Part shown: positions 7,401 to 59,467 of the stretch, piece after piece
Layout: each line of letters begins with the position of its first letter
How positions within the stretch are numbered: position 1 is the stretch's first letter
Origin: Cymbomonas tetramitiformis
Lineage: Eukaryota > Chlorophyta > Pyramimonadophyceae > Pyramimonadales > Pyramimonadaceae
Assembly: GCA_001247695.2 (NCBI GenBank)
Contig: LGRX02033391.1
Coordinates: 24,123 to 88,122 of the forward strand
DNA length: 64,000 nucleotides
Reading direction: 5' to 3'
Notes under the pieces: generated by a model
What the model saw: the letters and a program-made list of their open reading frames with translations, nothing else
What the model was told of the DNA's origin: nothing
Database searches by the model: none
Position numbers and translations under genes: made by a program

Positions 7401-7899
7401 CTTAAACTTGTTTCCAATGGCTGATCTTAGAAATAATATGACTACCGAACTTCACCTCTCTGCTCTGCCTGAAGCCGGTATGTACAGGCCATCGAAAACG
7501 AAGAATGGAGCTTTGGCGGTCACTGCCAAAGGGAAAACCGAAGAAGGTGCTGACTCTATGGTCTACCCTGACTTGCAATACGTGAGAAGACAGGAGTTTT
7601 GGAAGCTGATTGCATGGCACCATCTTTCCACTAAGAAAACCCCTCTGCACATGACTGAATACGCAGAGAGAGCACATGATGTACATATGGCAGTTGAAGC
7701 ATGCAAACACGAGTCGGGCGATCCAAAGAACTGCTATGCGATTAGAAGAGATTTGCTTGACATATCGATAGATGACAGACATTTAGACGAAGACGGCTGT
7801 GAGCTTTTTAGCAACCCCCTCAATGCGCACCCCAAATCCATGCAGAAGATGCATTCCCACGAGAAAGATGAAGAGAGCGCTAAAACCCTTTTGCAGTAA
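1309..7899 (+). CDS. LINE ORF2: APE endonuclease, reverse transcriptase, RNase H polyprotein
   Basis: 2196 codons. Near residues 90-345 lies an exonuclease-endonuclease-phosphatase domain: INMRGL, ADIVCISETK, GDKN (usually GDFN) and the C-terminal SDHGIVW. The reverse transcriptase spans nucleotides 3870-4810 with GPSGMRYSQW, YLDLKQAFDR, GVPQGEVLSPL and FFCDD, a variant of FADD keeping both catalytic Asp. RNase HI lies at about 6395-6885 (SDGS, AEIVGL, AIDSMAT, WIRGHNDD). A Cys/His knuckle CPYC...H...C follows at 7206-7265. The enzyme would nick target DNA and reverse-transcribe LINE RNA there. The region after 7265 leads towards the methyltransferase-like ORF and ends with ELFSNPLNAHP before a TAA. 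The start is uncertain: the first 60-80 residues may not be translated, or may follow ORF1 by reinitiation. Confidence 0.9.
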   Translation: MRCANANRTAQKPPMPKPQGHRAAYARKIKRRVIDTKCANQVFELENNYDDAGRCRNQAKYKTKQTERNDTERLTRLQEAQTSNNIIIMGINMRGLRHASEDKRSLIKLETICNLILDRRADIVCISETKINNENLPLVKALMQQKGIQYRTTFVDNRATKDSMILWDPSRIPLTPSVTKVDGSEKRSVMIKFVGKKGFTLYVASAYMNDASLQDGQTEFYDTLNDWAANAGQDVDKAYIEIGDKNCTLTQRQRITGGNIMTYQEHQEKNKHLLSHLSNDRCMLKEILMTHFPKDDIFTHVISNSSKAKLTHVIANTTMGNMIVNSGWTESNPYIMSDHGIVWAEVRMPTTGQLTKKATETSNAPRFAGAKEMTHDEYPGYPVRMNYKVPHKNLRTRITKKMLAAFLESNGYNADHLMHACQNRNKAKAEISIILGDTYDYDPKNTNPDGTPVTVNKLSKENGKMDSIEQGLKWHNKAKEWWIHLNAPWNMAHLLSRGRGMPEGAFNVSVCPEKNTWTIGLPTSKCKKEVSAYMKNHARLGPLEIKKIQKTESTESMNTWTITLHSHIPAPFWQHYGTDLETAALGNLNLTFDYATGWISYSNRLHSLLNAEISTKKVLRPEEPFNAEKTWITLHEQATKAASHAFGTKSNGGYHAQPKPSAVSNYTYKWMNTLRRSVHYMEKRAHYHIIPKVAIKAIGTIPFPSLKAKQGEEAKDWLNRLASNLPLFRKAFQESRKADLERRNLMEKEALQLLFTTNLSRFLDTVMGKVKVTTTGAAPIPDERGIIPDNEKDRLDANLREYKDKKLFSTKPNRPETLPAWLQEILRDSPKLPGTVVLELTKVIPQKELDLAYTTCGISTAPGPSGMRYSQWIKGPGNFQTLTLELFNHILNTGAFPKDAKAGIILPIPKNPLEPCTPENARPLTMLETGLKLFNTIIANRIKASLNRHPIFFPIQDAFLPNRSIDDSLHILNEVISDANRFDKELHIVYLDLKQAFDRAEFWMSNIALEKLGFPEKIIRVISNITENASRAVLTEDGLTDEWSLECGVPQGEVLSPLRFVAIMDILAIWLAKRASGANPTKEVYGYSLQETTKKGASPSQTGSILTPLGPSVTDISPNIFARFFCDDIVLIGKSKQEVQDMLGVVNEFMKFIGIPINTKKSKYTFRKQIKTTRANARRFSDTDMQLMSGGSLECNTDNCGPSLQAKWIPPANPEFLDFSDTTEANRYLGVWYSLDGKWEKQTEVLLNRLKSTLESIQLQNLNLHQLRYVLNAVVVPRMAYPLKVTSAIANKTKNVALELDRLIAAFVIKYMGNPVDTNHQAIFTAVCYGGYGIDSVHDIAIANCITETMSTLCSYEESEYWQRNRFERFQDPFLRELYLKHSNAWHKIMRNIIARECKKIGINGGPFSHYATYDRDEDKHLNWFKRTAHMMARTGYAIDSKCLPQNVHGENSLIAALPSSVYNSRATINAIQKYDLKQTGAFLSPCGGIFRPWAELKTVLGLSGNEKPDWLKNIEKEMTLQQNDHNCDIRYVKKQYRDMCEDLAPNCFYWKGGGATQKVELVHIQELDELLPTIKYRKYNTNLGCSTSYTVQENVYTMTLDENTHILHGESVLIPVGNQLDYMENDTFPQTATLKTNTPARYLEYVQDRLEEILHERARTRMADEDSEYSCPSGSDQDTTEVRQTTPPLHSYDTASDGSLFSSKGTACSGAAYAVRGMNGNPPLIRKANIPIHKPFYCPDSFIRSDIQLPSSTTAEIVGLRLLLSEQKDYILSSVAPTIHAIDSMATITAVTKDKRNMSIRDKLREPNRANIQAVRLVLEELGYYEGNENSKIILKWIRGHNDDTLHDKVDRAAKRASFRCDGPPPRFDPSDEMPHSLFYRNVPVMGDIRTHVRNIQKLSHYHIWKNMRQQGRNLRLLEHNEAPPIRDLSKAAPKHFTASRNRELLGLQASPARLKKLGKIEMSDCPYCVAGTTCTFEHIQLHCPGPSGALNTTRKEQDDSLRKLVKENVNDTPRLVNPGKGNSFLKMDNLNLFPMADLRNNMTTELHLSALPEAGMYRPSKTKNGALAVTAKGKTEEGADSMVYPDLQYVRRQEFWKLIAWHHLSTKKTPLHMTEYAERAHDVHMAVEACKHESGDPKNCYAIRRDLLDISIDDRHLDEDGCELFSNPLNAHPKSMQKMHSHEKDEESAKTLLQ

Positions 7900-8863
7900 T
7901 GGCAAGATAGGCTTCGATGGCCTAGCATTAGATGCGTACATTAATCCCATAACAGGACGGGGCAGGAATGTTTATGGAAACCCCCCCTTTGACGGTAAGG
8001 ATAACAATAGCGCCACTTCTGCGGTTATGACAACGTTGGCACTCGGTGCGCGAGCGGCTCAAACCTCGTCAGGCTTCACTGGTGTATGGATACTGCCCTT
8101 ATCTGTAAAAAATCAAAAGAAGTGGATTGCGAAAGGGTATGAACTCGTTTTCAGGTTTCCTCGGGACACCATTCCCTTTATCCCGCACGGATACTGGACC
8201 GGAGATGAGCCGTACAAACTGCCGGGGAGTGGTTGCTACAAAGACGACTTTTCGGATGTAGTCATCATAGCGATAGACAGCAACAAATATGAGCGTAAAC
8301 CAACTTTTGACTGGAGGGCCACTCAAAAGAAGATAGCAAGATGGTTCATTAATGTCCTGCCGGAGTCTAAGATCACAAACCGCAGGCTTGAAGCCACTGG
8401 ACTTCCACTCTCAGCCTGGAGAGAAATCCTTGATGAAAGAGACCAAGTCATGCCTACCTCGCTCTGCCCGTGGCCTGTAAATGATACGCCGTTGCGGCCT
8501 GAAACCTTAAGCACATATTTTGGCGGCCACCATGACACTCACTATACTTCGGACAAGCTGAAACCCTTCAAGAGTACGATACTGTGGCCCAAGGAGCTTA
8601 CTCTTACGGGACACCTCCCAAAGCACTTTGACAAAGTGCTCCATATCGTGGGGGTTTCCAAAAGGAAAGTAAAACCACTTATTAAGAAAATATCGAGGCT
8701 TTGTAGACACCACGTGAAAATCAGACGAAATATCTTCTTGAACGAGTTCACTGAGCCATCTAATGATGAACCGTGCCTCTCGAACATTGATATGACCCCC
8801 ACCGTTACCGAAGAAAATGCGATTTTTGACACTCGTGAGCACTTCACAAACATCGTCACGTGA
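7799..8863 (+). CDS. LINE ORF3: NPPF methyltransferase-like (Dam/DIRS-type) domain
   Basis: The frame is +1 relative to ORF2 and overlaps its last 100 bases. Convincing coding starts near 7894 with GKIGFDGLALDAY, followed by VYGNPPFDGK and a hydrophobic strand GVWILPLS..W, then FPRDTIPFIPHGYW and a Cys. NPPF/Y/W is motif IV of adenine-N6 methyltransferases. The same order (NPP, helix, hydrophobic strand ending in Pro-x-Trp, then a Pro-rich turn) is seen in the DIRS elements and in Copia pol in this window. The end of ORF2, CELFSNPLNAHP, looks like the missing N-terminal part of the domain, so ORF2 and ORF3 probably form one protein joined by a frameshift or split by a one-base lesion near 7880-7897. 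The C-terminal third (residues 230-354) is basic and unrecognised. Catalytic activity is unproven. Confidence 0.65.
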   Translation: MSFLATPSMRTPNPCRRCIPTRKMKRALKPFCSNGKIGFDGLALDAYINPITGRGRNVYGNPPFDGKDNNSATSAVMTTLALGARAAQTSSGFTGVWILPLSVKNQKKWIAKGYELVFRFPRDTIPFIPHGYWTGDEPYKLPGSGCYKDDFSDVVIIAIDSNKYERKPTFDWRATQKKIARWFINVLPESKITNRRLEATGLPLSAWREILDERDQVMPTSLCPWPVNDTPLRPETLSTYFGGHHDTHYTSDKLKPFKSTILWPKELTLTGHLPKHFDKVLHIVGVSKRKVKPLIKKISRLCRHHVKIRRNIFLNEFTEPSNDEPCLSNIDMTPTVTEENAIFDTREHFTNIVT

Positions 8864-9285
8864 GATTTCATGACTAAATGTGATTCTCCCCTTTGGGGGT
8901 AGGGGTCTCCCCCCTCCCTACCCCCCTCCCTCCACCCCCGCCGTCCATCCGCCTCACCACCGCCCCCCTTTTCCTTCTTCCTCATCCAACTGCCCCCCTA
9001 GTTCTTCGTCTCCCCTCCACCACCGCCGGGCAGCAGCCAGCCGCTCCACTTCCGCTCGTTCCGCTCGGGCTGCTGACCGCCTGCCGGCTAGCCTTTTTGG
9101 CGCATACCGCGTTTTTTTGCTAGTTGTGCTTTCCTCAGTAGGCTACTGAGATGAGCTACATTGTAGCGCACCATGTGTGAGGGAGTAGCCCCTAGCTTCT
9201 GCTAGCCTGCCTTGTGCAGGGTTACAGCTTCCCAGGACCGTGTCCGTACACCCGGTGTAAATGTAATATTATTATTATTATTATT
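8864..9285 (+). repeat. LINE 3' UTR with (ATT)n tail
   Basis: Non-coding, very C-rich at first (8885-9050), then a mixed stretch ending GTGTAAATGTAATATT and six or so ATT repeats. A diverged copy of the same 3' end lies at about 16791-17230, sharing TTGTGCTTT, GTAGCCCC, TAGCCTGC...GCAGG and GTAAATGT followed by ATT repeats. The shared end defines the LINE 3' terminus. Short ORFs in this stretch are products of the C-rich composition. Confidence 0.75.
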
Positions 9286-10515
9286 GCGGAGTGGGAGCCG
9301 ACTCGGCAGTGGGGGCCTGACGTGGACGTACGTCTCGACGAGTCTGCTCGGCTCGGCGTGCACGAGTTTTCGGAGGCCTTGCGTTCCGAACCGGTGCGTC
9401 GGTACTAACTTCATGAGGGGGGCCCTGAGCTCTCCGGCTGGTGGACGGGTCGGCACAGTGGAGATCGTGAGTACCTCACGGACCATTGGTGTACCCCTGA
9501 GGGGGTCCTTGCTCCGGTCATAGATGCCTCTGGTTGGCAAGGGGGTATTGCCCTTCGTGATTGGAGGCACATTGTGGACTTCCCGGTGGAGGAACGGGCC
9601 CCTCACAAGAGCTCTAACTTCCGGGAGGCTAGTACGGCTGCGGCGGCTGTGGAGCTTTTGGGTCCGAGCCATCGTGGTGAGCGCCTCCTGCTCAGGACGG
9701 ACAATACGACTACGATGAGCATGGTCAACAAGCAGGGCACTATGGCCCCAGACTTGTGGCCGGTTTGTAAGCGTATGTTCGACTCGGCTGCTCTCTACGA
9801 CCTGGACTTGGCTGCTGAGCATATCCCGGGTGTTGAGAACTGGCTGTCAGATGGTCTTTCGAGATATGTCCGGCGGAAGGACTGCTCTGATTGGCAGTAT
9901 CGCAGAGACGAGTTTGAGTCCATTGCTGACACGATGGCTATGCCTTTCACTTTGGACGGCGGGGCGGACCCGGTTGGGACTAATGCCCATCTGCCTCGTT
10001 ATCGTTCTGTGGTCGATGGATTCACCCGATCACCTGTGGATGGGGAGCACGTGTACTCGAACCCCGATTATGCATGCGTTCGGGAGTATCTGGAGCACTT
10101 CCTTGCGTGCCAGAGGAGGTCACCCTTCGGGACGGCGGGCACGTTCGTTCTCCCGGTGTGGGACACCTATGACTGGTGGCCGTTGTTGAAGGGGGCCCAC
10201 GTGCTGCGGGTGTACCCGACGGGGTCGGACCTGTTCACGTCACCTGAGTGGCGGAATCTGGCTGCGGGTGATGGCACGTATGCTTTCGGTGCGGAGCGGG
10301 CCTTCAGGGGCTCCACTCACTGGCCGGTGGTTGTGGTCCACTTTCCCCCCCTTCTTCCCGGCAGGCGAGACCGTGCGGCACCTGAAGGCTCGTGTACACC
10401 ATCTTCACTCAGAGCTCGGCGGGCGGTGCCCGTGCTTACGGGGGACCCGGCACATGACCGTATGCTTATGTCTCGTGTGCCGCCGACTTATGTGTCGAAG
10501 CTGTGCCGGGATTGA
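9286..10515 (+). pseudogene. DIRS RT C-terminus/RNase H plus methyltransferase-like domain
   Basis: The frame runs from the LINE junction with one in-frame TAA at 9406-9408. RNase H motifs follow: IDASGWQGG at about 9511, a TDNTTT motif near 9697, and HIPGVENWLSDGLSR near 9819. Then comes the DIRS methyltransferase-like domain: NAHLPRY, HVYSNPDY at about 10049 (NPD where active enzymes have NPP), TFVLPVW, WWPLL and YPTGSDLFTSP. The NPD change and the internal stop suggest an inactive copy. The segment before the stop (VDVRLDESARLG) may be the RT thumb region. In intact elements this protein makes DNA from the element's RNA; the role of the methyltransferase-like part is unknown. Confidence 0.8.
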
Positions 10516-10543
10516 GATCGGACTCACGGGCATGGTCCGGTGA

Positions 10544-11704
10544 TTGGGCTGCTGGGCCGGAGCTGCGGGGTGGAGGCAGGGGGCACATGCCCTCACACGG
10601 CTGACTTCCCGCCTGTTGGCCATGCGGACGAGGGACTCCACGGACACGGTGCACGCTCGGGGCATCCGTGATATTTCCTTCTTCCTCGGGCATTTCGGTG
10701 GCACCACGTTGCCCGCCACGGTGGAGGAGGTCTTGGGGTATGCGGGCTATGCGGTGGAGCTGCGGGAGTTCCGGCTGGACTCCTCGTCGGTCCGCACTTA
10801 CGTCTCGGGTGTTTCCGCCTGGCATGTGGAGATGTCTGCGGTGTTGCGGGCTTGTGGCATGCGTGACTCTGTTGGCCTGCCATGCAGGTTGCAGAACCCG
10901 TGCAAGGCCTCTCTGGTGGGGACGATCCTGCGGGTCTTGGATAAGCACTACAAGAAGCCGTCCTCTGCGAAGTCGTGCTGGACTCTTGTGCAGTGGGTGA
11001 CCATCTATCGGTATGGCTTCGTCATCGCTCGCCGGTCGGGTAGGCACCACCGGCTCCTCTTTTTGTTTTGCACGGTGGGTTGCCTTCGGCCTACAGGCAC
11101 GAGGTACCTCCGTGTGTTCTATCGCCTTCGACGCTGCTCAAAGGGGGTGTCCATTGAGTTCTACTCCCCGGAGGACGTTTCCATTCCGCACGTTGTGGTG
11201 GTTCGTGCGGACGGGGACCTGCGGCCCTATGTTCGGGGCAGGCTGCAGCGGGATAAGAACGTGGATGCTCGGAGGCCCCGTTACTTCTACCTGCCGGAGC
11301 ACATCCCTGGGCTGGGCTGCAGCCCGGTGGCTCTGTTGGAGGAGTACGTTCTGCGGGAACGTGTGTCATCGGGGGGGCTGCTGTTTGCGGCGCCTAAAGG
11401 GGCTTCGGGGTGGTATCCGGGGCCCTATATAGGGCACGGCCGTGCCTTTGTGCGGGCCTACGGGCGTGCCTACCCCGGTGCTCGGGATGGGCGCCTCTAT
11501 GGTGGTGGCAGTGCCCGGAAGTCTTTGGGCCAGTGGCTTTGGACGTATGGGTGGGCCAGCCGTATGATTTCCGACGTCGGGGGTTGGTACACCCCCAAGA
11601 CGGCTATGGACCTCTATTTCACGACACACCGCACCACCATATTGCAGGCATTGGAGCAGCTTGGTAGTGTTACGTCTCTTGTGACTGTGTCCCACTTGCG
11701 GTGA
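10544..11704 (+). CDS. Tyrosine recombinase of DIRS element
   Basis: About 386 codons, open from a TGA at 10541. An N-terminal SAM-like helical part (residues 30-130, DISFFLGHFGG...YVSGVSAWH) precedes the catalytic core: the first Arg in CLRPTGTRYLR near 11077-11112, then SARKSLGQWLWTYGWAS, where SARKS replaces the usual HSLR, and GGWYTPKTAMDLYF carrying the nucleophile Tyr. The enzyme would insert circular cDNA by recombination. The start codon is unclear (no ATG at the head of the ORF). The second-box His is not obvious, so activity is uncertain. Confidence 0.8.
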   Translation: MGCWAGAAGWRQGAHALTRLTSRLLAMRTRDSTDTVHARGIRDISFFLGHFGGTTLPATVEEVLGYAGYAVELREFRLDSSSVRTYVSGVSAWHVEMSAVLRACGMRDSVGLPCRLQNPCKASLVGTILRVLDKHYKKPSSAKSCWTLVQWVTIYRYGFVIARRSGRHHRLLFLFCTVGCLRPTGTRYLRVFYRLRRCSKGVSIEFYSPEDVSIPHVVVVRADGDLRPYVRGRLQRDKNVDARRPRYFYLPEHIPGLGCSPVALLEEYVLRERVSSGGLLFAAPKGASGWYPGPYIGHGRAFVRAYGRAYPGARDGRLYGGGSARKSLGQWLWTYGWASRMISDVGGWYTPKTAMDLYFTTHRTTILQALEQLGSVTSLVTVSHLR

Positions 11705-12777: not shown

Positions 12778-13608
12778 TCTGGCGCACTGCATTTGAGCAT
12801 TTCTGGCGCAATACATCTGCACATTTCTGGCGCACTGCATCTGCATCTCAATGGCGCACTGCATCTGCATCTCACTGGCACACTGCATCCGCATCTCACT
12901 GGCACAATGCATCCGCATCTCACTGCCGCACTGTATATGCACATCTCAGCACCGCATCAGCACATTCTGGCGCACTGCATCTGCATCTCACTGGCGCGCC
13001 GCATTTGAATCTCACATCTCACTGGCGCACTGCATTTGCATCTCACTGACGCGCATTTGCACATTTCTGGCGCACTGCACCCGCATCGCAATGGCGCACT
13101 GCATCTGCGTCTCACATCTCACTGGCACACTGCATCTGCATTTCACTGGCGCACTGCATCTGCACATTCTGACGCATTGCATCTGCATCTCAAGGGCGCA
13201 CTGCATCTGCATCTCACATCTCGTTGGCGCACCGCATTTGCATCTCATGGCGCACTGCATCTGCACATTTCTGGCGCACTGCATCACGCACATCTCCGGC
13301 GCACTGCGTTTGCACATTTCTGGCGCACTGCGTTTGCGCATTTCGCATTTGCATCTCACGGCACACTGCATTGCACATTTCCAGCGCATGCATCATTTTG
13401 GCGCATTGCATGCATCTCTGGAGCACCGCATCTCATCTCATCTGCACATTTCTGGCGCATCTGCACAGCATCAGCATTTCTGGCGCATTGCATCTGCATC
13501 TCACTGGCACACATACGCATCTCACTGGCGCACTGCATCTGCACATTTCAGGCGCATTGCATCTGCATCTCACTGGCGCACTGCATCTGCATCTCACATC
13601 TCGTTGGG
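12778..13608 (+). repeat. Minisatellite of CTGGCGCACTGCATCTGCA units
   Basis: About 830 bases of degenerate tandem units, mostly 22-33 bases, each holding GGCGCACTGCATCTGCA with CATTT or CATCTCA spacers. Several frames stay open on both strands (His/Leu/Ala-rich on +, Met/Gln/Cys-rich on -), an effect of the period and not evidence of genes. Its right edge is fused in frame to the RT fragment at 13609. Confidence 0.9.
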
Positions 13609-14487
13609 TCAAGGGTGCTCCCGTACATGGACGACATCCTGTTGCTGCTGAGCAGCAGGATCGAGGCGCTTAGGGCGCGCGAGTTGACATCTCGGGTCTT
13701 GATGAGACTCGGATTAAGCCGCAACGAGAAGAAGGGGCAATGGGAGCCCACACAGCTGGTGGAGCACCTCGGGTTGGAGGTGGACCTCAAGGCGGGACAG
13801 TTCCGCGTTACGCCGGCGAGGCTGCAGAAGATTCACTTGCAGGCCAAGGCGCTTCTCAGCGAGGCGTCGAGGCAACGGCGGTGGCTGCCAGCGCGGAGGA
13901 TTGCAGCGTTCGCGGGACTGTGCCAGTCCGTGTATCTGGCAGTCCCTCCGGCGAGACTGTATCTCAGAGAGCTGCACTTCGTGCTGACCACCAAGCGGGG
14001 ATGGGGCGCGAAGGTGAAGCTGACAAGGCAGGCGTGGGGCGACATCGAGTGGTGGCTCAGGCTGCCGGCTCAGAGCCGGTGGAACGGTCGCAAGATCTGG
14101 CGCAGCCACACCGACGCCTCTCTGTTTGCGTGGGGCGGGGTGCTGAACCTCAAGCACGCCGCAAGAGGATTCTGGTCCGACGAGCTGCGGCACCTGCATA
14201 TCACGCACCTGGAGCTGGAGGCCGTGTACAAAACGGTGCAATCCTTCCTGAGTGAGCTCACCGGCAAGGTAGTTCGCCTCTACTGCGACAACCAGGCGGT
14301 GGTGGCCATGCTCTCGCACTTCACCTCGCGCAACCCGGAGCTGATGCAGCGAATGCGAAGGCTGTGGATCCTCCTGGACTTAAACGACATCGAGCTCCAG
14401 GCGAGGTACATCAGAAGCGAGGCAAACGAGTGGGCCGACCGCCTGTCCAGGGACAAGGACCTCGACGATTGGAGGCTGAACCGCTAG
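13609..14487 (+). pseudogene. DIRS reverse transcriptase (partial) and RNase H
   Basis: The RT begins just before its catalytic box, YMDDILLLL at about 13624; the fingers domain is lost to the minisatellite. Then VEHLGLEVD, the thumb-like region, and RNase H: HTDASLFAWGG (14107), LELEAV, LYCDNQAVV (14280) and NEWADRLSRD. It ends at a TAG at 14485 that falls exactly where related elements continue into the NPPW domain, so this stop or an adjacent indel breaks the polyprotein. The upstream minisatellite is in frame, but a fusion protein is unlikely to be real. Confidence 0.85.
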
Positions 14488-14488
14488 C

Positions 14489-14899
14489 AGGTGGTTCCAG
14501 TGGGCAGAGCGGGAGTGGCACCGGCACACCGTGGACCGGTTCGCCTCAAAGCTCTCCGCCCATCTGCCTCGGTACTACGGGCAATGGCACGACCCGGGGT
14601 GCGAGGGAGTGGACTCTTTGGCCTACTCCTGGCTAGGAGAGGTCAACTGGGTAAACCCGCCCTGGTCCCTCCTCGACGAGGTGGCGCACAAGCTGCGGGA
14701 AGAGGGGTGCGCAGCCACGGTGGTGGCGCCCTACTGGCCCGGGAAGATGTGGTTCCAGCAGCTGGAGGCCATGGCCGACGAGGTGGTGATCCTGCTATGG
14801 GGCAGGGACCTCTTTACTCCCAGCAGGCTCCGGGGGTCCGAGCTGCTCGGGGCCTCAAAGTGGGACGCCATCATGTTCCGCATTTCCGCCTCCCGGTGA
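14489..14899 (+). CDS. DIRS NPPW methyltransferase-like domain
   Basis: The frame continues the RNase H ORF after a shift of reading frame. Motifs: WFQWAEREWHRHTVDRFAS, LPRYYGQWHD, GVDSL, VNWVNPPWSLLDEV (NPPW near 14660), AATVVAPYWP and WFQQLE. This is the domain of DIRS/PAT elements described as related to phage adenine methyltransferases. Asn-Pro-Pro-Trp is the expected motif IV, so it keeps the catalytic signature lost in the first DIRS copy. It would follow RNase H in the same polyprotein in an intact element. Confidence 0.75.
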   Translation, partial: RWFQWAEREWHRHTVDRFASKLSAHLPRYYGQWHDPGCEGVDSLAYSWLGEVNWVNPPWSLLDEVAHKLREEGCAATVVAPYWPGKMWFQQLEAMADEVVILLWGRDLFTPSRLRGSELLGASKWDAIMFRISASR

Positions 14900-14952
14900 G
14901 CCATTACCAGCGGGATGGGGGGCGGGCGGCAGAGCGCGCCCCGCGGGCGGAG

Positions 14953-15156
14953 CCTGCTCGAGGCTGCAGGGTGAAGGTATATTGGCGGTTGGATGATGCT
15001 TGGTACGCGGGCACGGTGGGCGACACGGGGCCGGACGGCAAGACCCACATTGCCTACGAGGATGGAGATGAGGAGCACTTGGACATGGCCAAGGAGCGGT
15101 ACGAGGTGATCCCGGCAGCGGTGCAAGAGGTGAGCGACTGGGATGTGGCGCTATAG
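14953..15156 (+). CDS. Tudor-like domain within the DIRS element
   Basis: A short frame reads RVKVYWRLDDAWYAGTV, then THIAYEDGDEEHLDMAKERYEVI, the barrel pattern of Tudor-type chromatin readers (Trp-Tyr-x-Gly-x-Val, then Tyr-x-Asp-Gly-Asp-x-Glu-x-Leu). It lies between the NPPW domain and the recombinase and is in the same frame as the recombinase, separated only by a TAG at 15154. In an intact relative it would be an N-terminal extension of the recombinase and could guide integration to marked chromatin. That role is inference. Confidence 0.6.
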   Translation, partial: PARGCRVKVYWRLDDAWYAGTVGDTGPDGKTHIAYEDGDEEHLDMAKERYEVIPAAVQEVSDWDVAL

Positions 15157-15579
15157 CAACGCTGGAGGGGTGAGCTGGGGAGCAGCTCCCTCACGGAGCT
15201 GGCAGTGCAGATGCAGGGTGCGGCGCTGGGCAGCAAGACGGTGGGCAACTACCGGCCGAAGGCTCGTGCCTTCATGACATTCTGTGAGGCAGAAGGCAGG
15301 GAGTGGCTCCCGGCAACGGAGGCCACGGTGAGGCTGTACATTGCCCAGATGTTGGACAAGGGCACGGTGCAGGCGTCCAACACGCAGCCTTACCTCTCCG
15401 CCATCAACAACTACCACGAGGACATGGGGCTCCCCGGACCTGCAAAGGGCCGGGCGGTCTCCAGGGCAGTGAAGGGCATGTCCCGCCTGCAGGTGCAGGC
15501 AGCTGATGCCGCAGGTGAGGAGCAGCCGGTGCGGACCTGGGACCATGGGGGAAGGGGCTTTAAGCCTTTGGCTCTCTGA
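15157..15579 (+). pseudogene. Tyrosine recombinase N-terminal (SAM-like) domain, truncated
   Basis: Reads SLTELAVQMQ, LGSKTVGNYRPKARAFMTFC, ATVRLYIAQMLDKG, NTQPYLSAINNYHEDMGLP, the core-binding N-terminal domain of DIRS/Ngaro recombinases. The catalytic Arg, His-x-x-Arg and Tyr boxes are absent: the frame runs out at about 15540 into unrelated pyrimidine-rich DNA. Confidence 0.8.
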
Positions 15580-19607: not shown

Positions 19608-19608
19608 G

Positions 19609-21105: not shown

Positions 21106-21573
21106 CTAACGCCTCCACTGCCACTGGGCAAACTCCTCCAGACTCAGGTTGCGAGGTGCTGCGTGTCCCGGAGTCTGCCCATATCCCCCAAAAGCAGCAC
21201 TTAACATCCTTGCTTGTTGCAATGACATCGTGACCTGGGGCTCTGCCTGCAGCTGAGGCGCTACCAAGGCCCCTGCATGCATCGGCAGGCTGGGCATAAA
21301 TTGCCCCGCGTTGCTGAAATGCCCCCCCGCCACGGCGTAGTTTCCAAGGAGCGGCACAGGCTCGAGGGGGGTGCTCGCAGCCGCGGGTGCGGAAGGAATG
21401 GCTGCGGGGGGCACTTCCACAGCAGTGCGCGCCTTCAGCTGACCCTCCAACTCCTTGATCTGTAGCTCCACCTGCAGATCAGCTAGGCGTTGCATGAGTT
21501 GGGCGTTGGCTTGCGGTTGGTCTTGCTGCTGCTCCGGCCGATGAGGCTGCTGAGCTTGCTGCTCCTGCTGATG

Positions 21574-21618
<45 letters not shown>

Positions 21619-43836: not shown

Positions 43837-43850
43837 GGTATGAGCCCACC
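43836..43850 (+). other. Primer-binding site (initiator tRNA-Met type)
   Basis: TGGTATGAGCCC starts with the last base of the 5' LTR and resembles the TGGTATCAGAGC site, complementary to the 3' end of initiator tRNA-Met, used by many plant and algal Copia elements. Confidence 0.6.
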
Positions 43851-44114
43851 ACTACTTCCACTACTGCGACATCATCTCTGGTCACAGATCCGCGCGTTTT
43901 GAGTCGTCAGATTTGAGATTTTCCGGGCCGACAGTAGATTCTGCATTTCCGGGGGGGGGCGCCTCTCCAGATCGCTACATCGAAGTCTGTGCCGCGGAAG
44001 CGCTGGATCATTTTTCCAAAAATAACTAGGCAACTCCAATTTGCCCAACATCTACGCGAGATCATCACGTACAACATCTAATCTCTCCGGCGACATCACC
44101 GACCGTATTGAACG

Positions 44115-47100: not shown

Positions 47101-48062
47101 ACGAGGTCGCGGACGAGCTTCCCGTAGACCTGCATGGGCCTACGGTGACCGTATCGGCCGAAACCCTACGGCAAACCACATCTTGCCACGTGGCACCGGG
47201 ATGCACCACGTGGCACAGCCGCCACCGTATAGAGGACGAGTCCCCCGACATTTACATCCTACCGGGGCTCGTATTGGCCCTTGGATTGGCCTCGAGATCG
47301 ACAACGAGCAAACTTCACCGTTCACACCCTTGGGACCCCCTCGGGACCCCCTCCGGACCCCCTCGTGAAAAAGATGACATCGTCACTTTTTGCGGCGAGC
47401 TCCCACAGTCCACTCGAAGCTTGGATCAGTCCATTTCCACCTCCGACCTTCCTCATCCACCATCCACCATCCACAAAGCCACTTACGCTTTCATGGTTCG
47501 AGCCGGAGATGCCACAACCACCATGCCATTAATGGGTGATTACTTTGCAGCAGATTTGGACTCAGAACAGCAACAAAAAGCTGTTGCAAAAGTCCGTTTT
47601 TCGACCATCGACTCGACGGCCGTTTCGGACACCATGGCTAAGCCCATTCCGGCCGAAGACGCTACCTTCACCTACACACCGACCTCGAGCACCTCTGGTA
47701 ACCTTTCGAGATCATCCTCGGTCTCATCTGACGAGCAGAGCCGCCATGAAGACCCAGAAGACTTCACCATCCCCATCAGCCAAAACCCTGAGTATGTATC
47801 GCCGGATTGGCCACAAACTCAGGGTTTCTCGCAGCTTGGACTTTCGGACGACCTGTACGAGTCCTCCAGCGACGGTGAGACCGCCTACGAGCCGCCATCA
47901 TCGTCACCGTGGCCACTTACCTTCGACGATGACACCATCGACCAGTGGCTTGCGATTCAGCTTGCTAAACAAGCACCTCGGCACATCGACATGAACGAAA
48001 CCTTCGATGACAATGCCCTGTTCCACCAAAGCCTTGGCTACGGTGGAAACACCACCTACTGA
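44115..48062 (+). CDS. Copia gag-like ORF
   Basis: 1315 codons from ATG at 44115, long for a Copia gag. The N-terminal 150 residues are helical; a capsid-like region follows (FKSYLSTNYILNLARALKVEYYNL, LRQRMVTVDVASAYDECLNAIL, LLHLKCLLANYPALDTEEYL, YSEREAQKLFYEML). A Cys/His cluster, CRTCYIVKKKTVHHSHGRAGC (about 45800-45865), may act as the nucleocapsid. After it a 600-residue Ser/Pro/Asp-rich region, likely disordered, continues to NTTY and a TGA at 48060-48062. The next in-frame codon is CTA, and pol follows in the same frame. Confidence 0.85.
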   Translation: MGGHATPQHEAGSPANSLSNSQGTTGPRNPQRSLFTTTEQLPQHATTEELITNVNANRTEIARLSAEFHALTERFRATFKFTAENTEKINAFPLKFCTSESFADHLTDFDEKLQILPGLVQKCNDAIARVNRASLSPTNTDNYDELTGAQLSHEVDNDSNVEMTDEITASEYMSGRRPTPTTMAVLAARTRTDIFKSYLSTNYILNLARALKVEYYNLTDIPQDQQPKELHLNVLCRGGEVVFNKLLTAISTCLKTVRVGHSEKLLDLRQRMVTVDVASAYDECLNAILAALLMRVTTGTTKSTINALTHSDDRLTKDGRALLLHLKCLLANYPALDTEEYLKTAKALRVTEDVDPMHIIDSFRQQVQLHRIQYPAYSEREAQKLFYEMLKDSQAVAKKKFESPLYYNILEEYNRDARTANLGYPGGLTTFFQDVQQRWYRVGAAHADHVRSGSHPAKANAFTGEFRQNPKSTTDTNRGKTPDRSRPQGGAKSAPDRPRSSTPYPQFPSQPEATMEERKTYEKELYNFQKKKHAGKPNVDTIVKGTWSGMKFTQANETDGFPCRTCYIVKKKTVHHSHGRAGCPCSLSEKMLKYDTRTPRANSLSSRKPSPPPPTLAAVANASSSQTPTLEEIKTIFTGDQRKALAAILASENASVTTFSGGATPTPPSVKHISEGGADSDDDGDEEFPAFQRAPQRMAWPIAKAKVSLNMLTVNKPSAVPPSAHNRRKVQQGYYMPLPTPPNDDDDDFQPASPDYSVTSSEEANTDSFTVVNSKKAFRPSPTTTHSVNVLTVNSFDALTSDDSDVPEHAPLLSDVHSDDYSQPEAAVHASQKLISAKKKMQRREQKKLRKTRSRQDDESWYVPVRPLRPHMTTRSTQTSETHANKLPKAYIFPSGANPNRNHEKTSHAATETILGTGEVVLSHIIQPQHVPTLRSPPQPHTPSSGSVDLHEPTTPSLTYEDATLLDDCLEEAQQLISLVTAEPPPTSTTTLDDIDEVADELPVDLHGPTVTVSAETLRQTTSCHVAPGCTTWHSRHRIEDESPDIYILPGLVLALGLASRSTTSKLHRSHPWDPLGTPSGPPREKDDIVTFCGELPQSTRSLDQSISTSDLPHPPSTIHKATYAFMVRAGDATTTMPLMGDYFAADLDSEQQQKAVAKVRFSTIDSTAVSDTMAKPIPAEDATFTYTPTSSTSGNLSRSSSVSSDEQSRHEDPEDFTIPISQNPEYVSPDWPQTQGFSQLGLSDDLYESSSDGETAYEPPSSSPWPLTFDDDTIDQWLAIQLAKQAPRHIDMNETFDDNALFHQSLGYGGNTTY

Positions 48063-48131
48063 CTACCTCACCACGGGTGCGGCGCCGTCAGCAACTGCCG
48101 CGACCTGTGCTGCCGTAACTTCGGCAGCACC
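48060..48131 (+). promoter_or_regulatory. UGA-CUA stop and hairpins between gag and pol (readthrough candidate)
   Basis: The gag TGA is followed by CTA and no other in-frame stop before the pol ATG at 48132. Two hairpins follow: GCGGC (48080-48084) with GCCGC (48097-48101), and a perfect 9-bp stem GTGCTGCCG (48107-48115) with CGGCAGCAC (48122-48130). UGA-CUA plus a downstream structure is a well-known readthrough signal in viruses and some cellular genes. Translation through it would give a gag-pol fusion. Confidence 0.6.
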
Positions 48132-51100
48132 ATGGGAGGTGACCACGTATACTCTACGGGCACTACTCCGAAACAGAGTGACGAGATGCTAGTGGACTCC
48201 GGAGCCTCCGTCTGCCTCTTCAACTCCGAGGACATGTTCGCACAAGTCAACCCGTGCAGAACGAGCCTCCACACAGCCAGCACCATCGACTTCAAGCCGG
48301 CCGGTATTGGCACCGCCAAGATCGACTTTAGCATGAACGATGGCACCGTACACACGGTGGTGCTACCCGACACCTACTACGACCCCAATGCACCAAACCT
48401 CCTCTCCGTCCGTCAGATGATCGACGCCGGCTTCGGCTCTCCAGACTTCATTAAGCTGTTTTGGCATCACGAAGCACGCCTCTTCGACATCCTCGACACC
48501 GGCAAGGACTATATCGTGCACCCTGACCAGTGGTCTCCTTCATCAACTTCTGCTCTCTCTCTTTCCCAACGACGACCCTTACTACAGCCACCGCCTTCAG
48601 TCTTGGCCGAGAAGGGCACCGTTGATTGGATGGTGCGACGAACAGCCTACCTCGACTACGCCGCCTTCAACCCTCACGGTGTATGCCACGTCGATCTCTA
48701 CACCGACGGCAAGCCTTACCCTGAGGGTAACTCGCAGTGCGAGCACTACTACTCCCTCGACGACCCCGCCGAGGAACACCATTGGCACGGCAGAGCTTTC
48801 TGGGCGAACCCGCCGTACCTCAACGCCTTAATCCACCGTATGTTGTCCAAGATGCTCAAGGATTTCTGGAAGGACCCCAACAACACCTCCTACACTGTTG
48901 TACTACGACGTTCGGAGGCTGCAGCTTGGTGGCCACTCACGTATTTCTTCCAGGAGATCGACAGTATCCCTGCGGGCACTACCGGATTGTTCTCGCGTCC
49001 ACGCGCGGGCACCTACGACCCTGAGGCACTCACGGACGCCGCCGGCGAAGGTGGTGCCGATCGAGTGTTCATCCAGGGCACGCCCTTCGACACGGTGGTG
49101 TTGTACAAAGACGCCAACACCGTGCCACGCATCGACCCAAACCAGTACCTTCACACATGCCTCGGCCACTACTCCGCCGACTACATTATCCACCTCATCA
49201 AGAAAGGCGTCAAATTCTGCGTCAACAGCCAGCGTATATCTCCGCGGACGCTGAAGACGCTACTGAACGACTGCGGCTGCGCGCATTGCAAAGCCGCGAA
49301 CACACATCGTCCAGGGCCATTTACCACTTTCGTCAACGCCATCCCACCGACTTCGCCGGTATCCCTACCGTCGGTCGCTAAGCCTGTGAAATGGGCTGAT
49401 GCGAAACCGTTCGAGTATATATTCGCCGACACCTGGGGACCGTGCAGACCGCCTGGCTTCGACGACTCCGTATATATACATGCCTTCAAATGCCCTGCGA
49501 CCAAGAAAGCCTACGCCTTCTCCTCATCTACGAAAGGCGGACAGCACCTTCAACTTCAACACGTTCTTGACGACGTTCATGCCCACGGTCACCACCCGCA
49601 GCACATCGTCTTCAGGACCGACAACGCACACGAGTTCGCCTCCGACGAGATGCGTACTATATTCCGACAGTACAAGATCAAACACCGCCCTGGACCTCCC
49701 TATATGCACGAGTTCCAGGCGCAGATCGAAGTACTCTGGCATGACATGGCCAAGATCATGACGACTACCCTGAAGACGTACGGCGCACCGCTGAACGTCT
49801 GGCCTTTGGCAGCACTTCATGCCATTAACACCATCATGAACGTCATGCCTAACCGCCACATCAACATGGACACTCCCCACTATCGGTTCACCCGAACACA
49901 CTTCGACTACCGACAGCTCCGCCCTTTCTGGTCCGAATGCTACGTCTGGCAGGACCCTGACCAGCGGCAGAAGACTGGCGAACCTCTTCAGGTCTCCGCC
50001 AAACTCATCGACAATGCCAAGCGCTATCGTTACGTTGGCAACCTGCCGAACTCCGTCTACCTCTGTTTCGACACCGCCAAGGCGAAGCTCAAGGAATTGG
50101 CGAAACCCACTTTCCTTCCAGACTACGATGTTATCTCGAAGCACCTCGCCAACACGGACGAGGCCCTTCGCGAGCCATCTACGGACGCCGAGCCGTACAT
50201 GCGTTCCCTTTATCCTATACGACGACCGCACGAGCTCAAGTCCAACGCCATCCTCGACATCGCTTGCTCCAAGCACGGCACCGAGACTCATGCTTACGTA
50301 CAAGTCCATGACGCACAGCAGAATCTGCCTGTCTGGACGAAGCTGAAGCACTACCTCGCCATGGACAAGTCCCACTACTCTGTCCTACAACAACATTCAC
50401 GACATCGCCAAAAACATGGCGACACGAACGTCCACCACCCCTGCTTCGCACAATGTGCGGCGAGACCTGTGGACCGCATGAAGTACCACCCAGCCACCAT
50501 CGTATCTGTCGACCACGACCCTGATGCGAAGCTACGGTACCAGGTGTACTTCGACTCCATGGACAAGCACAGCACCGCCTACTGCGACACCGACGCTGTT
50601 GTCCTCGACTCTACGGTCAAAGCCATGCTCGTCGCCGCACGAGATTCTGGCGACGACCCTGCTGACTTCCCAGACGACGTCTTCATGGACGAGCCTGACG
50701 ACGTCAAAGCAACGGCCGCCCTCCTTGGACCGAACCGCCATCACTGGGAAGCTGCGAAGCACAAAGAGATGGACGGCGTCACCGAAGAAGGACGAGCCGT
50801 CATGGTCAAGTCCTTTCCCAAAGACGCCAAAGTATTACCCACGAAGCTCGTGTGTAAGAAAAAGCGCAAACCTGATGGCACTCTCGACAAGTTCAAGATG
50901 CGCTGCACGACCCGTGGCGACCTCGACAAGTCCTACTACAGCGACTTCGACGTATTCGCACCCACGGCCAACCTCCACACGTTTCGACTCCTGATGACCC
51001 TGTGTATCTTACACGGGTGCATGCCGTACCACTACGACGTCTCCCAGGCCTTCCTCCAGGCGCCTATCCCCGAGGACGAGCAGTACTACATCAAATTCCC

Positions 51101-52454
51101 CAAGCAGTACACTCACCCCGACGGCTATATTGGCGCGAAAATGCTTTACGCCCTTTACGGGCACCGCACCTCAGGACGCCTCTGGAGCGACACCGCTCAC
51201 AACTTCATGAGCGACAACTTTCCCACTCTTAAACGCTCTACTTACGACGAGTGCCTGTACATTGGAACCGTCGACGGCAAGCTACTCTTTGTCCTAATCT
51301 ACGTTGACGACTTCGTTGTTGGCGCACAAGACGAGGCCACCAGAGTGAACTTCCACAACCGCCTCATGAACACCTTCACCGCCACCTACTCCGGCGTGAT
51401 CAACCAATTTCTCCAACTGAAGATCGACGTCACGACGAAAGTCAACGACAACGGCGACTCAGTCCCTGTGAAGATCGACATCTCGAACGAGCGAAGCATC
51501 GAACACCTCGCCGCGAAGTTCCAGATCAACACCGCGAAACAGCAACCTCGTTCACCTATGCTCGAGGGCCTCAACATTCAGGTTCCCAACGCCGAGTCCA
51601 TCGACCGCAGCATTGAGACGCCTGTACGCTCCATCGTATATTCGCTCCTCTGGTTGGCGCGAACTATCCGACCTGACATCTACTACCACGTCACCTACCT
51701 CGCCCAATTCTGTCACACGCCTACTGCCGAAATCATGTCAGCAGCCAAGCGCATTCTCGCCTACGTCTACGGTACCCGCGACTTCTCCCTGACGTACGAG
51801 ATTGATGAACAGCAACCTCAACTAGCAGTCTACTGCGACGCCGACCACGCTGGCGACACCTCCGACCGCAACTCTGTATCTGGCTACTGCCTATACATGC
51901 ACGGTATGCTGATCGACTGGTGGTCGAAGAAACAAAAATCATCAGCAGCGCTATCTTCGACTGAGGCCGAGTATATCGCCATGTCTGAAGCCTGCGTCTC
52001 CGCCCTGGGTATTCGCAACACACTTGCCGAGTACTGGGACCTCGACAGCGACACTATTCCTGTCCACATCGACAACGCAGCTGTTACGCACATCGCGACA
52101 CAGCGGCAGCTGTCCTCACGACTTAAGCACGTCGAAGTGCGCTTTCACGCAGTTCGACAGTGGTGCATCGGCGAAAACGCCAAGTTCCACACCGTCTGGA
52201 TTTCCACCGACGACAACATGGCCGACATCTTCACGAAGGCCCTACCTATCACCAAACAAGGTGTACCGCTCGTCATTAAACACACTGACGCCTTACTCAA
52301 CATCAAAGGCCGCAGAGTGAAACTTCGAGAGCAACTACGAGCAGCCGATCAGCAGAAGCAGCACGCAGCAGCAATGAAACTAGAAAAAGATCAATCGAAC
52401 GAAAGCATCATCCTTGCTACACTTAGAAAGCATGGCTACAGCCCAACAACCTGA
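48132..52454 (+). CDS. Copia pol: protease, methyltransferase-like domain, integrase, RT, RNase H
   Basis: 1440 codons from the first ATG; the frame is open back to the gag stop. Protease: MLVDSGASVCLFN (about 48187). Then at about 48637-49010 an extra domain with YYSLDDPAEEHHWHGRAFW, ANPPY (48811), YTVVLRR, AWWPLTYFF and GTTGLFSRP, matching the DIRS methyltransferase-like domain in order and spacing. Integrase: zinc finger HTCLGH...CGCAHC, catalytic FADTWGP (49424), FRTDNAHEF (49612) and QAQIEVLWH (49719). Reverse transcriptase: YDVSQAFLQAP and YVDD at 51300-51311. RNase H: CDADHAGD (51835), SSTEAEYIA and NMADIFTKALP. Standard Copia order apart from the inserted domain. No stop or frameshift seen. 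Confidence 0.95.
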   Translation: MGGDHVYSTGTTPKQSDEMLVDSGASVCLFNSEDMFAQVNPCRTSLHTASTIDFKPAGIGTAKIDFSMNDGTVHTVVLPDTYYDPNAPNLLSVRQMIDAGFGSPDFIKLFWHHEARLFDILDTGKDYIVHPDQWSPSSTSALSLSQRRPLLQPPPSVLAEKGTVDWMVRRTAYLDYAAFNPHGVCHVDLYTDGKPYPEGNSQCEHYYSLDDPAEEHHWHGRAFWANPPYLNALIHRMLSKMLKDFWKDPNNTSYTVVLRRSEAAAWWPLTYFFQEIDSIPAGTTGLFSRPRAGTYDPEALTDAAGEGGADRVFIQGTPFDTVVLYKDANTVPRIDPNQYLHTCLGHYSADYIIHLIKKGVKFCVNSQRISPRTLKTLLNDCGCAHCKAANTHRPGPFTTFVNAIPPTSPVSLPSVAKPVKWADAKPFEYIFADTWGPCRPPGFDDSVYIHAFKCPATKKAYAFSSSTKGGQHLQLQHVLDDVHAHGHHPQHIVFRTDNAHEFASDEMRTIFRQYKIKHRPGPPYMHEFQAQIEVLWHDMAKIMTTTLKTYGAPLNVWPLAALHAINTIMNVMPNRHINMDTPHYRFTRTHFDYRQLRPFWSECYVWQDPDQRQKTGEPLQVSAKLIDNAKRYRYVGNLPNSVYLCFDTAKAKLKELAKPTFLPDYDVISKHLANTDEALREPSTDAEPYMRSLYPIRRPHELKSNAILDIACSKHGTETHAYVQVHDAQQNLPVWTKLKHYLAMDKSHYSVLQQHSRHRQKHGDTNVHHPCFAQCAARPVDRMKYHPATIVSVDHDPDAKLRYQVYFDSMDKHSTAYCDTDAVVLDSTVKAMLVAARDSGDDPADFPDDVFMDEPDDVKATAALLGPNRHHWEAAKHKEMDGVTEEGRAVMVKSFPKDAKVLPTKLVCKKKRKPDGTLDKFKMRCTTRGDLDKSYYSDFDVFAPTANLHTFRLLMTLCILHGCMPYHYDVSQAFLQAPIPEDEQYYIKFPKQYTHPDGYIGAKMLYALYGHRTSGRLWSDTAHNFMSDNFPTLKRSTYDECLYIGTVDGKLLFVLIYVDDFVVGAQDEATRVNFHNRLMNTFTATYSGVINQFLQLKIDVTTKVNDNGDSVPVKIDISNERSIEHLAAKFQINTAKQQPRSPMLEGLNIQVPNAESIDRSIETPVRSIVYSLLWLARTIRPDIYYHVTYLAQFCHTPTAEIMSAAKRILAYVYGTRDFSLTYEIDEQQPQLAVYCDADHAGDTSDRNSVSGYCLYMHGMLIDWWSKKQKSSAALSSTEAEYIAMSEACVSALGIRNTLAEYWDLDSDTIPVHIDNAAVTHIATQRQLSSRLKHVEVRFHAVRQWCIGENAKFHTVWISTDDNMADIFTKALPITKQGVPLVIKHTDALLNIKGRRVKLREQLRAADQQKQHAAAMKLEKDQSNESIILATLRKHGYSPTT

Positions 52455-52602
52455 CAGTTCCACAGTGACTAGCACAACTTAGCAAGTTACAATTACCTAG
52501 GACCCTAACTATTTGCCTCCGGCAGTGTATCCGTCCCACCGCGAACCGTACACACCGAACCGTAGACACAGTCTGTCACCACACCCACGAGCTGTGGTGG
52601 TG

Positions 52603-52952
52603 TGACGAGTATACAGTATCTCAGACGTCTGCAGCACGAGTCACAGTACACAGTTCCTCGTGCCACACGTCACACTGTATATCGAGTTTACACCTCTCAG
52701 TGTGTCACAGCCTGTTCAGTGTCAGTTCACGACCATGAACTTATAATTCATGACCATGAATTCCTCATTCACGACCATGAACCTGACACTGCTGACGTGT
52801 CACTCACTCAGTGAATTAGTTCACCGAAACCGTTTCCCACTTTAGACTTAGAAAACTTTACGACACCGCAACAGCAATATTTTATCTACAGCAGTATATC
52901 GTTTTATACTTTTGCTTGTGTTTGCCTTTCCCGTTTTCTTGTATTCTCATCT
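52603..52952 (+). repeat. Copia 3' LTR
   Basis: 350 bp, 348 matching the 5' LTR. Followed directly by the CTTGT duplication and the rest of the interrupted gag. Confidence 0.95.
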
Positions 52953-53565
52953 CTTGTCCAATACCGCTCGCGAGGTGCACCCGGCTGTCAACGGTGTCCT
53001 CTACGACACGTTGGCGCACATTGTAGCTGATGGTTCGGCTGCGGAGATGTTCCTCGAGGGCGCTGGGGATGCATCTGACCGAGATGGGCGTCGTGAGATG
53101 ATCGACTTGGCCAAGGGGTGCATTCCCGTTGGCCTAATGACCTCCCACATGAAGGAGTACTACACCATACGCTACGAGGCGAAGGTGGATCCGCGCAAGG
53201 CGCTCACGCTAGAGCACCGCTTGGTCAAGGAAAACACCACACCTGGGTGGTTTCCTGACGACGAGTCGCGCAAGCAGGCCATGGTGGAGCGCCTCGACCC
53301 GGAGTTCTATCGCGCATTGTTGGACAAGTACCCGTTGGAGGCAGACCTTGCTAAGGTCAGCCTGCGGGAACGTGTCCACCAGATCACGGCGGTCTACATC
53401 TCGTGGGCGACGCGGCAGCAGCGGGTGCCACGACGCTCGCGCCTGGTGGCACAGGCGGTGTCACGGGCGCGTTGGTGGCGACTGAAGAACCGGGCGGAGG
53501 CGACGAGAGCGCATTCGACGAAAACCAGAAGCTGCTGCGGCAGATTTTGGACCGACTTAAGTTAG
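52953..53565 (+). pseudogene. Gag of the outer LTR element, middle part
   Basis: Continues the gag after Copia: TAREVHPAVNGVLYDTLAHI, MIDLAKGCIPVGLMTSHMKEYY, KALTLEHRLVKENTTPGWF, MVERLDPEFYRALLDKYPLE. This is the helical capsid pattern of Copia-type gag (UBN2/retrotran_gag-like). Near 53400-53430 the meaningful frame passes to the next ORF, implying an indel or a programmed shift. Confidence 0.75.
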
Positions 53566-58890: not shown

Positions 58891-58936
58891 AAGGTACGGG
58901 GTCCTGTTTTTGTAGGTACAGCAGCACAGCGCCTTC

Positions 58937-59467
58937 ATGGCACGTGCACCGGTGCAGCAGAACGACGAGAAGAAGAAGATTGAGGAGCAGGCGGTGGTGC
59001 CTGCACGGTGCCGTGGTGCGGCCGCTCAGCCGGTGGGCTGTGGGGCCTCGCCTTTCGGTGCCAGCCAGCGGCTGATGTGGACCGTGTGCATGCTTGGCAT
59101 GTTCGTGTGTGTGGCGGGAGCACTGCGGGGCACGGGAGAGCTGGGGGCGGCTGGAGGCGGGCCGGCTCATTTGGCAGAAGAGTTTTTCACGGACGAGCAC
59201 GGCCGGGTGTGGTTCTACCCGGAGCCGGTCGAGATTACGTTCGGGACGCACGACATTGACGGCTGGGAGCACAGGCTACAGGAGGCGGTAGACGTGCTCA
59301 CGGCACGTGTTCGTGACGTATTGCCGTCGGATGGTGGTGCAGCTGCAGATGGTGGTGCACTGGCAGCTGGTGGTGCTCACGTGTACGGCAACCCGCCGTT
59401 CGACGTGGCAGAAGATTGCGAGGAGGCAGCGGTGCTGGGTGACTACGAGGACGAGTACGAGTACTAG
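58937..59467 (+). CDS. Small membrane-type ORF of the outer LTR element
   Basis: 176 codons from ATG at 58937 (MARAPVQQNDEKKK). One hydrophobic segment, MWTVCMLGMFVCVAGALRG (residues 47-65), after a basic N-terminus suggests a type II membrane or signal-anchor protein. Then EEFFTDEHGRVWFYPEP and an Ala/Gly-rich stretch ending HVYGNPPFDVAEDCEE and an acidic tail. HVYGNPPFD is close to motif IV of the methyltransferase-like domain in the LINE ORF3, but the rest of the domain is absent, so it may be a remnant or chance. It lies between the TIR-like element and the 3' LTR. Confidence 0.45.
   Translation: MARAPVQQNDEKKKIEEQAVVPARCRGAAAQPVGCGASPFGASQRLMWTVCMLGMFVCVAGALRGTGELGAAGGGPAHLAEEFFTDEHGRVWFYPEPVEITFGTHDIDGWEHRLQEAVDVLTARVRDVLPSDGGAAADGGALAAGGAHVYGNPPFDVAEDCEEAAVLGDYEDEYEY

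Follow-up and report, generated by a model that had tools for sequence, protein, structure and literature searches.

Dam-like methyltransferase domains in the polyproteins of Copia, DIRS and Gypsy retrotransposons, and probably of a LINE, in the green alga Cymbomonas tetramitiformis

Methyltransferase domains have been described in several groups of retrotransposons. Such a domain was listed in 2011 for DIRS1-like elements, with its function stated as unknown (PMC3266345), and Ty3/Gypsy and DIRS elements encoding Dam and Dcm have been described from hosts that include green algae (PMC6338049). The elements SymbioLINE-Dnmt, SymbioDIRS-Dnmt3 and KnitGypsy-Dnmt3 document recurrent gain of a methyltransferase by LINE (long interspersed nuclear element), DIRS and Gypsy retrotransposons, under purifying selection, and methylation of complementary DNA (cDNA) was proposed for these carriers of C5 DNMTs (PMC5890265). 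We examined a 64,000-nucleotide stretch of the Cymbomonas tetramitiformis genome (contig C23306:24123-88122; hereafter, the window), in which a Copia element, two DIRS elements and a LINE carry a methyltransferase-like domain. The window belongs to an assembly of 852 Mb in 25,745 contigs, over which the genome searches ran; the published long-read assembly of this alga measures 914 Mb, with 68% interspersed repeats (PMC10675990). As judged from profile comparisons, the domains of Copia, DIRS and Gypsy elements are Dam-like amino-methyltransferase domains; they form part of Pol and adjoin RNase H or integrase.

These elements share several properties with the described systems. The DIRS elements have the same order of reverse transcriptase (RT), RNase H and methyltransferase, with a probable tyrosine recombinase, as the DIRS1-like elements of PMC3266345; that report covers DIRS only, and the family that we call DIRS-A differs by an NPD[YF] motif. 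As in PMC6338049, a Dam-like domain occurs in Gypsy and DIRS, and one Gypsy polyprotein (L052) resembles the Dam/Dcm elements of that paper in carrying both a Dam-like domain and a C5-methylase-like region; Copia and LINE carriers are unmentioned in its excerpted passages, and the word 'Copia' occurs 0 times in its text. The repeated gain of a methyltransferase under purifying selection reported in PMC5890265 is likewise seen here, although the enzymes described there are cytosine methyltransferases, structurally unrelated to Dam. Furthermore, the methyltransferase of SymbioLINE-Dnmt is an upstream open reading frame (ORF), whereas the LINE domain described here is C-terminal, and the excerpted account of Symbiodinium Copia elements gives them no methyltransferase of any kind, unlike the Copia elements of Cymbomonas (PMC5890265). 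The phage Dam family (PF05869/PHROG_111) has the motifs WxTP, D(L/A)xxx...N, NPP[YFW], LP..WW and GRxxF largely in common with the Copia and DIRS domains, but phage Dam proteins stand alone, whereas those described here are domains of polyproteins. A Dam-like domain was already on record for DIRS and Gypsy; Copia carriers, and probable LINE carriers, look new. Among the papers listed in searches of the open-access literature we recognised no report of Dam-like domains in Copia or LINE elements; subscription papers were outside this scope, and priority is unproven. Iyer and Aravind have reportedly worked on eukaryotic adenine methylases.

A first-pass annotation of the window had claimed five copies of one methyltransferase-like domain, each recognised by a short motif. 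Across all six reading frames of the window, a loose form of this motif, [DNSH]P[PD][YFW], turns up 19 times, with all five claimed motifs where the annotation had put them; because of this frequency the motif alone is weak evidence, and profiles decide. The copies in Copia, in the two DIRS elements and in the LINE proved to be real, with a moderate case for kinship to Dam in the LINE, and the fifth, in an ORF near the end of the window, was due to chance.

The domains were located in the window as follows, all on the plus strand. The Copia domain (48618-49127, NPPY at 48807-48818) lies between protease and integrase in a pol ORF (48063-52454) with the order protease-integrase-RT, in which Pfam found Pol_BBD, Dam, rve and RVT_2 in succession. 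The element is complete (43487-52952), with long terminal repeats (LTRs) at 43487-43836 and 52603-52952 that are identical at 348/350 positions and a target-site duplication, CTTGT, at 43482-43486 and 52953-52957; the LTRs, the duplication and the order of the pol domains place it in the Ty1/Copia class. DIRS-B, the second DIRS element of the window, is truncated (13594-15579) and retains the end of the RT (RVT_1, E 0.0064), RNase H (RT_RNaseH, E 1e-4), the Dam-like domain (14480-14899, NPPW at 14654-14665) and the N-terminal domain of the recombinase (Phage_int_SAM_1, E 4.2e-5). Of DIRS-A, the right half is present (9293-11704), with RNase H, the Dam-like domain (9886-10390, variant motif NPDY at 10060-10071) and a downstream ORF (10544-11704) that is probably a tyrosine recombinase, assigned by a motif and lacking a Pfam match; the left half, which holds the RT, falls in L053, outside the window on its upstream side.

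Profile searches related the Copia domain to Pfam Dam (E 1.4e-5), to a PHROG DNA methyltransferase (1.3e-4) and, in an hhalign comparison spanning 133 columns, to a set of 12 phage Dams (E 1.9e-8). For the NPPW domain of DIRS-B the corresponding values were 7.3e-4, 2e-8 (PHROG_111) and 5.2e-9. Pfam and PHROG searches with the NPDY domain of DIRS-A gave no match, and hhalign aligned it with phage Dam (E 1.7e-4 over 123 columns) and with Copia (E 4e-6 over 149 columns), an assignment to which the shuffles and relatives described below also contribute. The order of motifs in the alignment was identical across phage, Copia and DIRS. When the sequences were shuffled with the motif kept and the tested family excluded from the profile, 0/1000 shuffles scored as well for each of Copia, DIRS-A, DIRS-B and Gypsy (for DIRS-A, 693/1000 gave any score), which refutes chance convergence for Copia, DIRS and Gypsy. 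The copies in the window missed the curated cut-off of PF05869 (28.1 bits), with Copia at 25.3 and DIRS-B at 19.7 bits and no match for DIRS-A or the LINE. Two Copia relatives were also below it (P0001, 23.9 bits; P0002, 27.2 bits), and the cut-off was passed by a Gypsy relative (L052, 48.3 bits) and by the DIRS-type loci L016 (51.7 bits) and L014 (53.2 bits).

The domain recurs across the genome in Copia, LINE and DIRS elements and also in Ty3/Gypsy, as a survey by element class revealed. In this survey the numbers of candidates are first-look numbers and not copy numbers, and only the best candidates were scored. For PF05869, the best 150 of 7257 candidates were scored and all 150 were above the cut-off; with the Copia domain 150 of 6024 candidates were scored (143 without an inner stop), with DIRS-A 150 of 6032, and with the LINE domain 121 matches of 4499 (118 without an inner stop). 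Six of eight fetched PF05869 loci look DIRS-type, with RNase H followed by Dam, and two are Gypsy-type. Pfam confirmed an RT in both DIRS-type loci tested (L013 and L016), which belong to a third family, DIRS-C, and L016 has RT and Dam together. The tyrosine recombinase of the DIRS class has Pfam evidence in the N-terminal domain of DIRS-B given above and in L013 (Phage_integrase, E 0.0015), and a recombinase-like pattern, HxxR...W...Y, is present in 4/6 DIRS-type loci. The Gypsy polyprotein L052 (G000:C10371:10500-18499) reads protease, RT, RNase H, Dam, integrase, chromodomain and, after the chromodomain, a C5-methylase-like C-terminus whose score (E 0.0077) falls under the cut-off. It had been claimed from the window that elements with different integration enzymes carry the domain, and this stands: DIRS has a probable tyrosine recombinase, Copia and Gypsy use an integrase, and LINEs are probable further carriers.

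The motif was conserved at these loci. The canonical form [DNS]PP[YFW] was found at 20/20 Copia loci (the window copy included), in 14/14 DIRS-C and Gypsy sequences from 13 loci, and, as NPPW, in the one copy of DIRS-B seen. DIRS-A has NPD[YF] in the window copy and in 6/6 fetched relatives, and so departs from the canonical form. Relative to P0001 and P0002, the window Copia is 89 and 73% identical in the domain and 90 and 67% in the RT, that is, the domain is as conserved as the RT. Searches of public proteins returned two Copia relatives, one LINE relative and none for the LINE read-through, and viral contigs searched with P0003, DIRS-A, DIRS-B, Copia and LINE queries yielded no relative. 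Over its first 700 residues, the part compared, P0001 is 100% identical to a locus of this genome, and P0003 matches the genome at 95%, which rules both out as proteins of a second species; P0002 is 77% identical to the nearest Copia locus. The public gene model of P0001 (CYMTET_55755) fuses the Copia pol with a tubulin-tyrosine ligase domain, probably because a retrotransposon insertion was annotated as a chimera.

Ratios of nonsynonymous to synonymous substitution (dN/dS), computed for Copia, LINE and DIRS-A, indicate that the domain is kept by purifying selection in these three families. In Copia, dN/dS of the domain was 0.064-0.150 in 14/15 pairs, the fifteenth (0.273) being a near-identical pair; it was in the range of the integrase where measurable and below the protease in 14/15 pairs. 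The LINE domain had the lowest dN of three segments in 10/10 pairs of five loci, with dS saturated in 9/10 and a dN/dS of 0.031 in the remaining pair. DIRS-A gave 0.142-0.287 in five pairs, for which five of the six fetched relatives were used.

The fifth claimed copy, read by the first-pass annotation as a possible methyltransferase remnant in its 58937 ORF, lies in ORF 58916-59467 (plus strand). This ORF had 45 matches among 88 candidates in the genome search, and seven fetched relatives identify it as the C-terminal end of a gag-like ORF in which a hydrophobic stretch is present. In these relatives the motif reads YGRPPF, YGLPF, YGNSPF, YGNPPF or YGNPPY, and 4/7 lack NPP[FY] (YGRPPF twice, YGLPF and YGNSPF). 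We rejected it as a remnant: it has no homology beyond a chance NPPF, the motif is unconserved, and it is the tail of a gag-like ORF.

The LINE (1-9285) is represented in the window by the 3' 9.3 kb of a copy of about 12.0 kb (contig 21368-33407), and a non-LTR RT (RVT_1, E 8.6e-23), a target-site duplication and a 3' (ATT)n repeat tail place it in its class. It is inserted in DIRS-A, with a 7-bp duplication GCGGAGT (right copy 9286-9292) and the (ATT)n tail; an uninterrupted DIRS-A relative (L097) spans the junction: it aligns on one side with the RT half, which precedes the window, and on the other with the RNase H portion that follows the LINE. The RT domain (4030-4821) corresponds to residues 916-1179 of ORF 1285-7899. 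The end of this frame (7753-7899) contains the initial portion of the methyltransferase-like domain, with ELFSNPLNAHP, and here the window copy leaves the frame; the core of the domain follows at 7868-8305, with NPPF at 7979-7990. Although the domain is thus split over two frames in the window, the stretch from CELF/CELL to NPPFDG is in a single frame in 28/30 fetched loci, all but L050 and the copy in the window, and a programmed +1 shift or a separate third LINE ORF, raised from the window alone, was therefore dropped. NPPFDG itself is kept in 30/30 loci, window copy included, and open frames longer than 3000 residues hold 6/121 scored matches.

Kinship of this domain to Dam is less direct. 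An initial hhalign match to phage Dam covered 11 columns only. An alignment of 25 LINE sequences (effective sequence number, Neff, 1.35) matched a 30-sequence Dam profile over 62 columns at E 1.6e-4 (probability 51%), keeping register from NPPF, past LP and W, up to a strand that matches GRxxF; 0/100 motif-keeping column shuffles were as good (best 1.1e-3), and ORF58916 reached 1.5e-3 over 13 columns against the same profile. With a narrower 17-sequence profile the E-value was 4.3e-3, against 0.042 for the best of 40 plain shuffles. The whole-sequence hmmsearch score of one LINE sequence (L046) was equalled or bettered by 1/1000 motif-keeping shuffles. The domain, which is divergent and sits at the polyprotein C-terminus of a many-copy LINE family, is probably akin to Dam.

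The strongest alternative is that the LINE domain has an unrelated fold and shows NPPF by chance, which would leave the methyltransferase to Copia, DIRS and Gypsy; we consider this the less probable reading, if a serious one. The window copy had no match in Pfam or PHROG, Pfam matched 0/7 of a seven-member set, the LINE alignment had no match in the PDB, a phage search with the domain gave no match, and two AlphaFold models were poor (predicted local distance difference test, pLDDT, 44 and 39). The LINE alignment also matched the false ORF58916, which lies in the same window: 25 columns around VYGNPPFD gave E 1.4e-5 (probability 80%), so small E-values can stem from a short shared motif. By best-domain hmmsearch score, 5-26/1000 motif-keeping shuffles did as well for five LINE sequences and 46/1000 for ORF58916, so that these five are not clearly better than the false case. 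However, a chance motif fits poorly with its retention in 30/30 loci at mostly saturated dS, and with the in-register alignment that no motif-keeping shuffle equalled.

The first-pass annotation had further proposed that a single domain was passed between element classes. In a tree of 30 domains, from which the LINE was left out and in which L088 and L089 (DIRS-C) and L090 (Gypsy) were classed by domain similarity alone, Copia joined three Enc34-like phage Dams (91/99, not starred). DIRS and Gypsy formed one group (93/94), with DIRS A and C together within it (87/81), neither support being starred, and DIRS-B, on a very long branch, was unplaced. Forcing all element domains into one clade cost 7.9 log units and was not rejected by the approximately unbiased (AU) test (p 0.174). 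With Copia beside the phage Dams, DIRS and Gypsy apart, and this p-value, two captures are the best reading; the tree points to at least two likely acquisitions from phage-type Dam genes, that of Copia being separate from that of DIRS/Gypsy. Horizontal exchange of one domain between classes inside algal genomes appears unlikely. It would account for the 38-48% identity of Gypsy and DIRS-C domains over 94-113 residues despite their different integration enzymes, and the single clade survives the AU test. However, the best tree separates Copia from DIRS/Gypsy and DIRS A and C from Gypsy, and the LINE domain is too divergent to place; moreover, in DIRS as in Gypsy the domain comes after RNase H, so that common descent accounts for these two as well as exchange does.

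The best full explanation of the domain, to which we give about even credence, is that it is an adenine methyltransferase in Pol that modifies DNA copies of the element and is kept by selection. A putative S-adenosylmethionine-dependent N6-adenine methyltransferase would be translated within Pol. For DIRS, Gypsy and Copia its targets would be adenines in the cDNA of the element itself, modified inside the particle or prior to integration, and in the LINE, which copies at its target, it would act on nascent cDNA or on the insertion site. With this mark a new copy might pass for expressed chromatin of the host, or be protected from nucleases. Such a role would agree with the finding of N6-methyladenine (6mA) on genes that are expressed in Chlamydomonas and in several protists (PMC12695648). 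Several observations weigh against it. The same source places 5-methylcytosine, not 6mA, on the transposons of those organisms and reports no 6mA enrichment on Trichomonas transposons (PMC12695648). The Copia and DIRS-B domains of the window score below the Pfam curated cut-off, DIRS-A carries NPD[YF] in 7/7 sequences, and the database, structure-prediction and best-domain results for the LINE count here as well. Because LINEs copy by target priming, free cDNA does not arise, and it is not evident that all classes would share one role. A broader proposal, that four superfamilies (Copia and LINE for the first time) each fixed an adenine-methyltransferase domain through at least two or three separate captures because new DNA copies bearing the 6mA signature of the host would have a general counter-defence wherever hosts use 6mA, we regard as doubtful.

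Methylation of RNA offers a different role, in which the domains would act, as PCIF1 does, on the transcripts of the element or on caps and so aid translation, packaging or escape from RNA sensing. It suits LINEs best, given their lack of free cDNA, and a weak likeness to PCIF1 was seen in Copia P0002 (PF12237, E 0.023) and in a PDB search with a Dam-like alignment, where a PCIF1 chain scored best (E 0.074). Both scores are non-significant, phage DNA Dams match far better, and having RNase H and integrase as neighbours speaks for cDNA; we judge this role unlikely. DIRS-A, with its conserved NPD[YF], may be catalytically inactive, and loss of catalysis in at least some lineages, leaving a nucleic-acid-binding or assembly module of Pol, would agree with the 7/7 variant motifs and the purifying selection in five DIRS-A pairs, but the canonical motif in Copia (20/20), LINE (30/30 loci) and DIRS-C plus Gypsy (14/14) makes it improbable in general.

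The recurrence has a counterpart in the cytosine methyltransferases, which retrotransposons are known to have gained repeatedly. DIRS, Gypsy, Copia and probably LINE elements conserve comparable domains at many loci, and at least one Copia copy with the domain is very young, which makes the question of function testable, and a single genome lets classes with particle cDNA be compared with classes that copy at the target.

Some further features of the elements were observed. The complete Copia sits inside the gag-like ORF of another element, whose tail is ORF 58916. Its own ORF in gag position (44112-48062) is in the same frame as pol with one stop codon between them, suggesting stop-codon readthrough. 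In the LINE, the 5' part (L053/window 1-1408) has a zinc-knuckle-like ORF and, ahead of the RT, an Ulp1-like protease stretch (H...D...QTDSYNCGVW); this protease and the LINE endonuclease are presumed from motifs and had no Pfam match. In one locus (L051/L096, G000:C13891) a single frame of 3257 residues joins RecQ to the LINE polyprotein. A RecQ helicase heading this ORF of L051 was discarded as a LINE part, since three other long copies lack it. What a motif suggests to be a RecQ-like N-terminal half lies just upstream of the LINE in L096, and this LINE copy therefore seems to be inserted in a RecQ helicase gene or element. In DIRS-B, a Tudor-like stretch (RVKVYWRLDDAWYAGTVGD...), presumed from a motif, follows RNase H in frame (14488-15156). 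Finally, short imperfect repeats, seen in the translations, run at 12800-13600 and interrupt the DIRS-B reverse transcriptase.

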